Origin: Chryseolinea serpens
GTDB taxonomy: Bacteria; Bacteroidota; Bacteroidia; Cytophagales; Cyclobacteriaceae
Assembly (NCBI RefSeq): GCF_900129725.1
Contig: NZ_FQWQ01000002.1
Location: 62,001 to 126,000, forward strand
DNA length: 64,000 bases
Reading direction: 5' to 3'
The position numbers were made by a program, and so were the translations under genes. The notes beneath the pieces are model-generated. The model was not told the origin of the DNA and ran no database searches. It was given only the letters and a program-made list of their open reading frames with translations. Positions within the stretch are counted from its first letter, which is position 1; every line of letters begins with the position of its first letter. Positions 6,992 through 11,658 of this stretch are shown piece by piece.

Positions 6992-7585
6992 TTATTTCGC
7001 GACAGCTGCTTCTTCCAGCCAGGATGCTGTGATCTCATTCAGCACCTTCACCTTCTGACCAAAGTCGCCCTTGATCTGGTCGCGGATCTTTTGCATGTTG
7101 TCCAGCAGCTCGTTGGTGTTGTCGGGGATCGCTTCGTCGAGGTATTCGCGGATGCGTTTGGAGATAGTTGGGGATTTGCCGTTGGTGGAGACACCGATCT
7201 TTAGATTTCCTTTTGTTACAACAGAACCCAAATAGAAATCACAGAGGTCGGGGGTGTCGGCCACGTTGGTGAGGATGCGGCGGGTACGCGCCAGCTTCTT
7301 GATCGCTTCGTGCAAACTGCGATTGTCCGTTGCCAGGAGAACGATGTCTTTGTCCCATAAGTCCCACAGCTTGAAATTTCTTTCGTATAGCTTCACCGTA
7401 GGATGGGCTTTGGCCACGTCCTTGATGTCATCCATAATGGTGCGGCCCACCAGCGTGACTTTAGCTGCGGGGCTGCTCTTCAGGATGGCCGTCAATTTTT
7501 CAAGGCCTACGTTGCCGCCGCCGACGATGAGGGTGTCGAGCGATTCAAGCTTGAGGAAAACGGGGAACAGGTTATTGCGCTCCAT
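6992..7585 (-). CDS. Precorrin-2 dehydrogenase/sirohydrochlorin ferrochelatase (Met8/CysG N-domain type)
   Basis: A 197-residue protein starting with NLFPVFLKLE and the Rossmann motif IVGGGNVGLEK, as in the N-terminal domain of CysG and yeast Met8. It oxidises precorrin-2 to sirohydrochlorin with NAD+ and inserts Fe2+ to make siroheme. The Asp in NVADTPDLCDF corresponds to the residue used for both reactions in Met8. It is the third gene of the sulfite reductase operon, 13 bp after cobA, so this organism splits the functions that CysG fuses. The siroheme is presumably for the sulfite reductase encoded first in the operon. Confidence 0.88.
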   Translation of the reverse strand: MERNNLFPVFLKLESLDTLIVGGGNVGLEKLTAILKSSPAAKVTLVGRTIMDDIKDVAKAHPTVKLYERNFKLWDLWDKDIVLLATDNRSLHEAIKKLARTRRILTNVADTPDLCDFYLGSVVTKGNLKIGVSTNGKSPTISKRIREYLDEAIPDNTNELLDNMQKIRDQIKGDFGQKVKVLNEITASWLEEAAVAK

Positions 7586-7598
7586 GGTGGTAACTTTT

Positions 7599-8384
7599 CT
7601 ATTGATAATGTGTTGCTACTTCTTGTGTCACGGCGGCTAATGCGCGGGCATGCTGCACCACTTCGCCCACCACCATAATGGCCGGTGAGCCGATGCCGGC
7701 CAGCGACGCTTTCGAAGCGATGTCTGACACGGTGCCCGTTACGAGCCGCTGTGTGGGCAGCGTACCATTCTGAATGATCGCCGCCGGTGTTCCGGACTTT
7801 CCATGGGCCTGGAACAATTCCATGATCTCTTTGACTTTGTTGAGTCCCATCAGGATGACTACCGTCGCGGTGGATTGCGCCGCCAGTGCAAGGTCGCCCG
7901 ATAGTTCGCCGGCTTTTGTGGTGCCGGTGATGACCCAGAAGCTTTCGCTCACGCCGCGTTCCGTTACCGGGATGTTCACACTAGCGGGAACCGCCAATGC
8001 GCTGCTGATGCCGGGCACCACGGTGGTTTGCACACCATGCGCTTCCGCGAAAGCGATTTCTTCCGCGCCACGTCCAAACACGAACGGGTCGCCGCCTTTC
8101 AAGCGCACCACGTGACCATACACATAAGCGTAGTCGACGATCAATTCGTTGATCTCATCTTGTGTATGCGAATGCGCTCCGGCTCTTTTGCCCACGGAAA
8201 ACGAGGGCACGTGCACGGGGATCATGTTCAGGATCTCTTCCGACACCAGCGCGTCGTACAGCACCACGTCGGCGGCCTTCAGGGCCATGAGGCCTTTCAG
8301 CGTCATCAGCTCCGGATCGCCGGGGCCGGCGCCTACCAGCGTGAGGCGGGGTACTTTTTCGAATGTGAATATCGTTGGTATCAT
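7599..8384 (-). CDS. cobA: Uroporphyrinogen-III C-methyltransferase
   Basis: A 261-residue SAM-dependent tetrapyrrole methylase. It shows the family landmarks LVGAGPGDPELMTLKG at the N-terminus, VRLKGGDPFVFGRGAEE (SAM/substrate binding) and VVPGISSALAVPA. It methylates uroporphyrinogen III twice to precorrin-2, the first step toward siroheme. Its start overlaps the stop of the sulfite reductase gene by 4 bp (ATGA type), which indicates translational coupling. Because no cobalamin genes are nearby, its role here is most likely siroheme supply. Confidence 0.92.
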   Translation of the reverse strand: MIPTIFTFEKVPRLTLVGAGPGDPELMTLKGLMALKAADVVLYDALVSEEILNMIPVHVPSFSVGKRAGAHSHTQDEINELIVDYAYVYGHVVRLKGGDPFVFGRGAEEIAFAEAHGVQTTVVPGISSALAVPASVNIPVTERGVSESFWVITGTTKAGELSGDLALAAQSTATVVILMGLNKVKEIMELFQAHGKSGTPAAIIQNGTLPTQRLVTGTVSDIASKASLAGIGSPAIMVVGEVVQHARALAAVTQEVATHYQ

Positions 8385-10556: not shown

Positions 10557-10583
10557 GAGCCTTTCCTGTGGCAGGAAAGGCTC
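10557..10583 (-). terminator. Intrinsic terminator (attenuator) before the sulfite reductase operon
   Basis: On the minus strand a perfect 12-bp stem (GAGCCTTTCCTG and its complement) closes a CCA loop and runs straight into TTTTATTTAAGG. This is a textbook intrinsic terminator, but it lies between the promoter and the first gene, 44 bp upstream of its start and 42 bp after the leader peptide stop. It must therefore act as an attenuator, not as the end of another gene. The 5' arm (TTCCTGC, plus-strand 10571-10577) can instead pair with GCAGGAA inside the leader peptide gene (10640-10646). Confidence 0.85.
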
Positions 10584-10625
10584 GGTATGTTTTGTGTTTG
10601 TGAGACGATTTGATTTGTGTTTGTC

Positions 10626-10724
10626 TTACGTACCGGATATTCCTGCGTGAGCATCAAGATGTTTACAGCAACACACCTTGGCTGCGTTCATCTTCTTGGT
10701 CGTACAGGAAATCACATTCTTCAT
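10626..10724 (-). CDS. Cysteine-rich leader peptide (32 residues) of the sulfite reductase operon
   Basis: A 33-codon frame with an ATG start and TAA stop. The peptide has four Cys in 32 residues: Cys7 and three consecutive Cys at 18-20 (codons TGT TGC TGT, in AKVCCCKHLDAH). A second in-frame ATG at codon 12 would still include the Cys triplet. It lies about 35 nt after a predicted promoter and 42 bp before an intrinsic terminator that precedes a sulfite-assimilation operon. I read it as the sensor of a ribosome-mediated attenuator: when Cys-tRNA is scarce the ribosome would stall at the triplet, leave codons 27-29 (GCAGGAA) free to pair with the terminator's 5' arm, and allow read-through. 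The role is inferred from layout; no expression evidence exists here. Confidence 0.72.
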   Translation of the reverse strand: MKNVISCTTKKMNAAKVCCCKHLDAHAGISGT

Positions 10725-10765
10725 ATACTATTATATCTATTATATCGATTCTATAATATCTATCA

Positions 10766-10796
10766 CGAAAGTAGACTATGCTTTACAAAAATCAAA
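10766..10796 (-). promoter_or_regulatory. Bacteroidota-type promoter of the leader/sulfite reductase operon
   Basis: On the minus strand TTTG (10793-10796) is followed by 19 bp and TACTTTCG (10766-10773), one mismatch from TAnnTTTG. The predicted transcript start near 10758 places the leader peptide ATG about 35 nt downstream. Apart from the leader, terminator and this promoter, the 10514-10971 gap shows nothing else recognisable. Confidence 0.6.
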
Positions 10797-10971: not shown

Positions 10972-11658
10972 ATGCTAGCTTTCGTTTCCGGAACGGGAGT
11001 TTTACTGGGCACACTCACCTCATTTTTCTTATTGTTGGTGAAGCGACCCCCGCACGAGCACGCCGTGCGCTTCCTCGGTCTGTATACTTTGTCGTTAACG
11101 GTTGGGCTTGCGGAACCGCTGATCCCCGCAGGGAACCTGTTGCTGCGCTACGCTGCCGGTGGTGTCAGTTTGCTGTATGGACCTCTCCTCTTTCTCTACT
11201 GTCAACACCGGATGGATGCTGGCCGCACCATCGGGTCGTCCTGGAAACATTTCCTTCCCTTCCTCCTCTATTGCCTGTCGTTGACGCTGGAAAAGTCTTT
11301 CGCGCAGGCGCCGCTCGAGGTCCGCGAGGGTGTGGAGCTGGCTTTGTACATTCTGTTGTTCGTACAGATCATCGGCTATTGTTTTGTGGCCGATCTTTAT
11401 GTGGTCCACTTCCAGAAGCACATCACCGGCGCCAATGTATTCACCCGAAGCAGTCGCTTGTTCTTTTTGAAAATGATCGTGCGCGTGTCGGGCGGGTTCT
11501 TTCTCGTCACGTTTATTGGGAATCTTTGCCTGGCGTTATTTGGGTTTGCCTATCGCGAGGAACTCTCGATCTCGATACAGGTGGGCGTTTGCCTGATCTT
11601 ATTTTTGATTGCGCTGCTGAACACCGAAACGATGCATGCGGAAAAGCTGGTGGAGTAG
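10972..11658 (+). CDS. Seven-helix membrane protein resembling the sensor half of 7TM-AraC regulators
   Basis: A 228-residue, very hydrophobic protein with about seven membrane helices (near residues 5-25, 35-55, 62-80, 92-108, 122-142, 165-188, 196-216). The layout matches the N-terminal membrane half of Bacteroidota 7TM proteins that carry an AraC-type DNA-binding domain at the C-terminus. Here the protein stops 12 residues after the last helix and no helix-turn-helix follows in any frame before the next gene. It is either a stand-alone membrane protein or a receptor that lost its output domain. No catalytic motif is seen. It converges on the DUF3052 gene, leaving only 4 bp between. Confidence 0.6.
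   Translation: MLAFVSGTGVLLGTLTSFFLLLVKRPPHEHAVRFLGLYTLSLTVGLAEPLIPAGNLLLRYAAGGVSLLYGPLLFLYCQHRMDAGRTIGSSWKHFLPFLLYCLSLTLEKSFAQAPLEVREGVELALYILLFVQIIGYCFVADLYVVHFQKHITGANVFTRSSRLFFLKMIVRVSGGFFLVTFIGNLCLALFGFAYREELSISIQVGVCLILFLIALLNTETMHAEKLVE

Follow-up and report, generated by a model that had tools for sequence, protein, structure and literature searches.

The window analysed here is a 64,000-nt stretch of the 8.36-Mb genome (G000) of the Bacteroidota bacterium Chryseolinea serpens (contig NZ_FQWQ01000002.1, positions 62,001–126,000), whose minus strand carries a nirA-type reductase gene, two siroheme genes and, ahead of them, a candidate cysteine-codon attenuator (Table 1). The three genes show operon-like spacing, with a 4-nt overlap between the reductase and cobA-type genes and then a 13-nt gap to the siroheme-synthase-type gene. 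The reductase gene encodes NIR_SIR and NIR_SIR_ferr domains (PF01077 and PF03460), in two stretches each, and its product is 76% identical to the nirA-type protein of Fulvivirgaceae bacterium JP3-4 (L133). As all NCBIfam models listed for this protein score below their cut-offs, sulfite and nitrite reductases are not separable here from sequence; the first gene of the operon is probably an assimilatory sulfite reductase. The original prediction, made from the DNA letters of the window, had named a sulfite reductase/cobA/siroheme operon: its NIR_SIR and siroheme genes are borne out, and its choice of sulfite over nitrite goes beyond what the sequence can tell.

The promoter, the 32-residue open reading frame (ORF) with its three consecutive Cys codons, the perfect 12-bp terminator with its U-tract and the order of the operon on the minus strand were all found where that prediction had placed them. 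The GCAGGAA of the leader, named here segment 2, is exactly complementary to TTCCTGC in the terminator (segment 3), again as claimed. The label of the promoter-like element rests on what we take to be the Bacteroidota promoter consensus. The nearest large ORF upstream of the leader (10972–11658) lies on the opposite strand, with a 108-codon minus-strand ORF (11095–11421) antisense within it, so that there is no obvious upstream transcript in need of a terminator. The 5′ untranslated region of the leader (10725–10765) contains a small AT-rich repeat, TATAATAGATATAATAG, which is partly common to genome G002 and absent from L004–L006, where the start codon follows the −7 element of the promoter by 8–9 nt.

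Table 1. Features of the attenuator locus and operon in the window, and the tandem aptamer–leader element found elsewhere in the same genome.
Feature	Position	Strand	Basis
Promoter-like TTTG-N19-TACTTTCG	10796-10766	minus	Bacteroidota-type consensus
Leader ORF MKNVISCTTKKMNAAKVCCCKHLDAHAGISGT, 32 codons	10724-10626	minus	ATG at 10724, TAA at 10628-10626
Segment 1, TTTCCTG, codons 5-7	10711-10705	minus	Able to pair with segment 2 (folding)
Cys codons 18-20 (TGT TGC TGT), proposed stall site	10673-10665	minus	Sequence
Segment 2, GCAGGAA, putative antiterminator 5′ side, codons 27-29	10646-10640	minus	Sequence and folding
Putative inner antiterminator strand CCGGTA, directly 5′ of the stop codon	10636-10631	minus	Fold without terminator 3′ arm; alignment A2
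TACCG, partner of the inner antiterminator strand	10587-10583	minus	Folding
Intrinsic terminator hairpin, 12 bp, 3-nt loop CCA, −19.6 kcal/mol, then TTTTATTT	10583-10557	minus	Folding
Segment 3, TTCCTGC, terminator 5′ arm and first loop base	10577-10571	minus	Sequence and folding
Nitrite/sulfite reductase (NIR_SIR) gene, nirA-type, 710 aa	8381-10513	minus	Pfam PF01077 and PF03460
Uroporphyrinogen-III C-methyltransferase, cobA type	7599-8384	minus	TIGR01469, 277.9 bits over cut-off
Siroheme synthase N-terminal-type gene (precorrin-2 dehydrogenase)	6992-7585	minus	TIGR01470, 112 bits over cut-off
SAM-I aptamer, 8 nt later poly-Cys ORF (CMCCCCACCC)	G000:C10:2850787-2850889; L257:1101-1352		

The predicted structures of the leader RNA are consistent with a switch between two folds. 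The leader is more stable than any of 200 shuffles (z = −3.71). When RNA from just past the Cys codons is folded with the terminator 3′ arm removed, the GCAGGAA/TTCCTGC pairing is extended, beyond the original prediction, by that of CCGGTA with TACCG into an antiterminator of −16.1 kcal/mol. Ensemble folding of the nascent RNA, in which the ribosome footprint is an assumption, predicts 8.6 antiterminator pairs with a ribosome at Cys18, Cys19 or Cys20 versus none with a ribosome at the stop codon. Segment 1, likewise absent from the original prediction, is able to bind segment 2 beforehand (isolated region, −25.6 kcal/mol); the resulting 1:2 hairpin is seen in the window fold, and the ensemble without the terminator 3′ arm favours the antiterminator. 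A scan of the window leader against Rfam gave six matches at E ≤ 10, with no riboswitch or T-box among them and none at the gathering score; likewise, the nirA leader of L002 gave nothing at the gathering threshold.

We read the element as a cysteine-codon, ribosome-mediated transcription attenuator, with a probability of roughly 0.87. A ribosome would translate the leader close behind RNA polymerase and, when charged tRNA-Cys is scarce, would stall at Cys18–20, leaving segment 2 (GCAGGAATATCCGGTA) free to pair with the emerging TACCG...TTCCTGC. The antiterminator once formed, there would be no terminator, and the reductase and siroheme genes would be transcribed. With ample cysteine the ribosome would instead reach the stop codon and cover segment 2, the terminator would form and transcription would end. 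We infer in this scheme that the ORF is translated, that cysteine is the signal and that termination and readthrough take place in cells. Ribosome-mediated transcription attenuation is the mode of control of the Escherichia coli trp and his operons, with which the window shares a run of regulatory codons in a leader ORF, a segment 2 opposed to an intrinsic terminator and an operon of the same pathway. It differs from them in its amino acid (cysteine rather than Trp or His) and its Bacteroidota host, in a segment-1 protector that is weak and poorly conserved, and in that several relatives start nearly leaderless.

Conservation of the Cys run was assessed upstream of nirA-type genes. Of the 118 genomes of the family, 90 have a match to the nirA-type protein. 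The 91 loci compared, 33 of them returned loci and 58 fetched stretches, come from 88 of these 90 genomes and from three further genomes of the genus; the other two, G007 and G055, have split or partial genes and were excluded, as were weak secondary matches. An ORF with at least three Cys in five codons lies within 300 bp upstream at 42 of the 91 loci; the same rule finds a mean of 1.64 in dinucleotide shuffles (maximum 5 in 100 rounds), one on the reverse strand, and two (plus) and three (minus) in 87 far-upstream regions. At least four Cys in five codons occur at 25 loci, against 0.02 in shuffles, none on the reverse strand and, in the 87 far-upstream regions, one (plus) and none (minus). 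Among the 20 amino acids Cys is by far the most enriched (z = 34.5; 42 versus 1.6), followed by Val (5.5), Leu (4.8), Trp (3.7) and Gly (3.5); the Val, Leu and Trp signals are tentatively attributed to the same stretches, read in other frames or through a WFW core. These counts, like all those that follow, are inflated by relatedness among the genomes, which only the one-locus-per-genus test below thins out and which weighs against the strength of the comparison.

Within the genus, all six genomes keep a Cys-run leader (MKNVISC...KVCCCK, MKNVISC...KCCCK, MKNVMT...KCCCK, MTKYLTC...CWCCK, MTKYLSC...CCCCCK and MHKSDDKALPCCCRYCCNNAGNTGT). Seven sequences, from five of the six genus loci and from G078 and G088, were aligned (A2); neither the CAGGA segment nor the GAGCCTTTCCTGC arm varies among them, and most other positions drift. 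The consensus promoter pattern precedes the leader in L003–L008 and, under a looser leader rule that admits WCC motifs and divides the loci into 50 with and 41 without a leader, stands before 11 of the 50 leaders versus 3.4 in mononucleotide shuffles; its presence ahead of every leader was accordingly rejected. In L004, L005, L006 and L008 the leader starts 8–10 nt past the −7 element and is thus nearly leaderless.

Terminators accompany these leaders. A hairpin of −12 kcal/mol or stronger followed by a T-tract lies after the Cys codons at 45 of the 50 leader loci, and at 0–1 of 50 in five shuffled sets. Counted within 200 bp of the gene, a terminator is present at 45 of 50 leader loci versus 4 of the 41 without a leader (Fisher P = 2 × 10−15), and restricting the count to genes whose nearest same-strand ORF upstream is 150 nt or more away gives 45 of 49 versus 1 of 18. 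Five of the six genus genomes have a terminator by this rule, the sixth (L007) carrying an imperfect hairpin that fails it. The case that would speak against the scheme, a terminator kept where the Cys ORF is lost, is rare, being limited to the four loci just counted, one of which (L092) has an ORF with CFMMCC, below the Cys-run threshold.

The antiterminator is supported by covariation between segment 2 and the terminator. Pairing of the post-Cys region with the 5′ arm of its own terminator was compared with shuffles at 47 of the 50 leader loci (L007 and L041 have no terminator by the rule, and the region of L090 is too short); it is better at P < 0.05 in 30 of them and at P < 0.01 in 13, the window standing at P = 0.04. 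Because many terminators have GCCTTTCC in common, arms were also permuted among loci, L056 and L063 being left out since a farther second ORF had been picked there. Over the remaining 45 loci, own pairing sums to −586.6 kcal/mol versus −419.2 ± 17.7 kcal/mol for permuted arms (z = −9.4), and matched pairs are better in 890 of 984 double swaps. Thinning the set to 32 loci, one from each genus, leaves the signal in place (z = −8.6; 465 of 496 swaps; 22 of 32 at P < 0.05). Indeed, the terminators vary by locus and the segments vary correspondingly, as in CCCGAGGGA, ACCAGGGA and TTCCGGGGAA. At the 28 loci with P < 0.05, the median distance from the last Cys codon to the start of segment 2 is 14 nt, about where a stalled ribosome is expected to end, and the median distance from the end of segment 2 to that of the stop codon is 14.5 nt. 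Short ORFs are common, and one could by chance lie beside an ordinary terminator or a hairpin of no regulatory role; the shuffle, permutation and no-leader controls, together with the divergent orientation of the neighbouring large ORF, make such a coincidence barely credible.

Ensemble folding was extended to 25 loci picked by hand from the 47, and in 16 of them a ribosome stalled at Cys gives at least two more antiterminator pairs than one at the stop codon. Segment-1 pairing reaches P < 0.05 in 6 of 28 loci (window P = 0.083), and a general 1:2 protector hairpin was rejected on that count.

Outside the family set, 77 loci of named relatives were compared, from which L133, L135 and L136 (the last two of the same clade) had been excluded. 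A Cys-run leader lies within 300 bp at 15 of them (shuffles 0.86, maximum 3), including loci of Pedobacter, Mucilaginibacter, Pontibacter, Chitinophaga and Reichenbachiella, and under a looser rule 13 of these 15 leaders are accompanied by a terminator. The Reichenbachiella leader (L138) is almost identical to that of L019, so that the named set partly overlaps the family set.

At many of the loci without a leader, nirA lies close behind a gene read as cysH, cysN or other. Reading up to 9 kb upstream at 40 of these 41 loci (L057 left out; L122, L125, L128 and L129 end at contig ends) revealed a Cys leader at the operon head in six (L121, L124, L126, L128, L130 and L132). The other Cys hits in cysH-labelled stretches lie within genes or far away, and a CILCC ORF about 510 nt before cysH in L097 was left uncounted. 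No convincing Cys leader was seen in the 28 cysH-labelled stretches L093–L120. Of the nirA genes that go with these stretches, 26 of 28 lack a strong terminator in the adjacent 200 bp, the exceptions being L050 and L076. The cysH-linked operons are apparently controlled otherwise. Directly before the PAPS-reductase-family genes of G000 no Cys leader was seen. Six consecutive TGY codons were tried as a genome-wide marker and rejected: they occur in 217 of 395 genomes, the backward control is also positive, and many of the sites consist of low-complexity sequence or sit within long ORFs.

A distinct subclass comprises 15 leaders upstream of nirA (L012–L018, L020–L022, L025, L136 and L219–L221) with the core R-[CR]-A-C-W-[FY]-W-C-C. 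Their core codons differ by 268 synonymous versus 72 non-synonymous changes, against an expected 11 synonymous among 81 single changes; the observed ratio is inflated by the gathering of the set by motif. Free of this bias are the Arg at core position 4, which lies outside the search pattern and is kept in 15 of 15 leaders through five codons, and L012, L015, L016 and L025, which were found by the plain Cys rule. All four Ala codons are used, and every one of the 15 leaders has TGT TGT for its final pair of Cys codons. A scan of 390 genomes across the order with the pattern matched seven, five of them before nirA (four in another family) and two elsewhere. Synonymous drift in the core points to selection on the peptide, and hence to a possible arrest peptide or mixed mode in this subclass. 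Taken more generally, nascent-peptide arrest would mean that the leader peptide itself, beyond tRNA-Cys charging, stalls the ribosome. The shared core, its synonymous drift and its recurrence before nirA in another family make this likeliest for the R[CR]ACW[FY]WCC leaders; the window leader lacks the core and, outside the subclass, genera share little beyond Cys runs, so that as an account of the window it is very improbable.

Cys leaders also occur before other sulfur genes. G000 has a second one, MKKIIHT...GDICMCCCCACCC, 130 nt before a Cys/Met-metabolism PLP (pyridoxal phosphate) gene (L257), which is one of five PF01053 genes looked at in this genome and the only one so preceded. Directly upstream of this leader lies a SAM-I (S-adenosylmethionine) aptamer (RF00162, 75.7 bits), and the same aptamer was found at each of the seven operon-head leaders examined, L257 and those of the six loci listed earlier; Rfam found none at the nirA leader L002 or at the poly-Cys loci L233, L248 and L252. 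The 91 SAM-I sites read are among those of a longer list (30 returned loci, 60 fetched and L257; two G096 sites at contig ends were skipped), and their gene labels follow our own motif rules, with L309 removed as mislabelled metY. Among these sites, 31 precede metY-type genes, 29 of them with an ATG 6–13 nt past the aptamer end. A Cys-run leader follows at 16 of the 31 metY-type sites versus 0 of 37 metH-type sites, and three more follow other SAM sites. Nineteen SAM-linked leaders are thus listed, of which 18 could be resolved (L305 could not); two have a terminator, and terminators were rejected as a feature of this group.

The tandem aptamer–leader architecture stands in front of metY-type and related sulfur operons. 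One study places the ribosome-binding site of sequestering SAM-I riboswitches within the 3′ strand of P1 (PMC2258182). We hypothesize a two-input sulfur gate, in which SAM would control the start of leader translation and charged tRNA-Cys would control elongation. Tentatively, then, the window attenuator might be one branch of a Bacteroidota regulon of cysteine-codon leaders, some of them with a SAM-I riboswitch as a second sensor in series.

Poly-Cys ORFs of a further kind were noted elsewhere. In L233 (1–1551, minus strand) the ORF MFFLSHTCCCCCCC ends 60 nt before a cysteinyl-tRNA-synthetase-like gene, with no terminator found. Those at L248 (1498–1590, minus) and L252 (1438–1524, plus) are of one type, which a similar-looking ORF in L250 (minus) shares; they end 52 and 51 nt before the gene, respectively, and the gene of L252 matches phytanoyl-CoA dioxygenase (PhyH). 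Cysteine-responsive polycysteine short ORFs with leaderless starts were reportedly described in mycobacteria by Canestrari in 2020. A translated cysteine-sensing leader of that mycobacterial kind, an upstream ORF (uORF) acting by translational coupling or Rho with the hairpin incidental, could be proposed for the window as well. It would accommodate the poly-Cys-stop ORFs that stand 51–60 nt before cysS-like and PhyH-like genes with no terminator found (L233, L248 and L252), the scarcity of terminators in the SAM-linked leaders (2 of 18 resolved) and the nearly leaderless starts of L004, L005, L006 and L008. However, nirA-type leaders usually do have a terminator (45 of 50), and it covaries with segment 2; moreover, the window has 12 codons after its Cys run in addition to the terminator, whereas a Cys-run uORF of the Actinobacterial or mycobacterial kind would have the run close to its stop codon and no terminator. 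We consider this mechanism improbable for the window, somewhat less so than peptide arrest.

The attenuator reading itself has to be weighed against several results that do not favour it. In the window, ensemble folding still predicts the antiterminator (8.6 pairs) with no ribosome present, so that untranslated RNA should read through, and termination without translation is not predicted. The terminator (−19.6 kcal/mol) is also more stable than the antiterminator (−16.1 kcal/mol), which implies that the switch must be kinetic and decided before the terminator 3′ arm emerges. Among the family loci, 17 of 47 show no significant segment-2 pairing, including L005 (P = 0.55) and L006 (P = 0.08) of the same genus, and 9 of the 25 folded show no stall-over-stop difference of two pairs. 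The picture of a segment covered at the stop codon fits the R[CR]ACW[FY]WCC subclass poorly in these models: in 9 of 11 such leaders tested, segment 2 stops 24–50 nt short of the stop-codon end, and several show no stall/stop difference in ensemble folding. Of the 31 stretches with a cysH-labelled gene, 30 have no convincing leader (only L121 has one), and the idea that every nirA operon has a Cys leader was rejected on this ground. Finally, segment-2 pairing is significant in only 3 of 12 named relatives; the antiterminator is firm for the family of the window and only suggested beyond it.

What is observed comprises the sequence elements, their conservation, the covariation of segment 2 with the terminator (the permuted-arm test bearing out the predicted conservation of the antiterminator pair) and the predicted structures. 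The check that the original prediction had proposed, whether Cys codons, terminator and antiterminator pair are kept in relatives, came out largely in its favour. The prediction was right on the sequence and most probably also on the mechanism. Its central statement, that a stall frees segment 2 and the stop codon covers it, agrees with the 8.6 versus 0 pairs of the window ensemble and falls short in the R[CR]ACW[FY]WCC subclass.

Parts of this architecture have precedents. Cys-rich upstream ORFs are in print for Actinobacteria, as the prediction had said (PMC1262725), and, before cysS, for Rhodobacterales. The Actinobacterial and mycobacterial leaders resemble that of the window in placing a Cys-run uORF ahead of sulfur operons with cysteine as the proposed signal, and differ from it in that the window has a terminator and a covarying antiterminator. 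The uORFC-8-2 motif before cysS in Rhodobacterales is a short ORF with tandem Cys codons, after which an intrinsic terminator is predicted, as in the window (PMC8632094); it differs in its gene, which encodes a cysteinyl-tRNA synthetase, and in its phylum. For Flavobacterium psychrophilum, of the same phylum as the window, a 2021 study reports 'strong clues' of leader-peptide attenuation, with leader peptides before amino-acid biosynthesis operons (PMC9723704); its main-text passages, as far as available, name no cysteine leader. A 2010 survey gives leader-peptide attenuation as known in Proteobacteria and Actinobacteria only and then adds Firmicutes (PMC2965389), and such attenuation seems little described in Bacteroidota. 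The original prediction knew of no description of the mechanism for this operon in Bacteroidota; a literature search at the level of titles and abstract starts (most subscription papers being beyond reach) found no cysteine attenuator before nirA in Bacteroidota and, within the same scope, no SAM–Cys tandem in that phylum.

What appears new is thus a probable cysteine attenuator for a sulfite reductase/siroheme operon in Bacteroidota, ribosome-mediated attenuation and Cys-codon leaders elsewhere being known. It provides a candidate cysteine sensor before sulfite reductase-type genes in many genera, including Pedobacter, Mucilaginibacter and Reichenbachiella, and points on to two further elements, the SAM-plus-cysteine tandem and the R[CR]ACW[FY]WCC core conserved in the subclass. 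If true, it would imply close coupling of transcription and translation in these bacteria, and would explain how sulfite reduction and siroheme supply are coupled to cysteine, the operon likely being on when cysteine is short.
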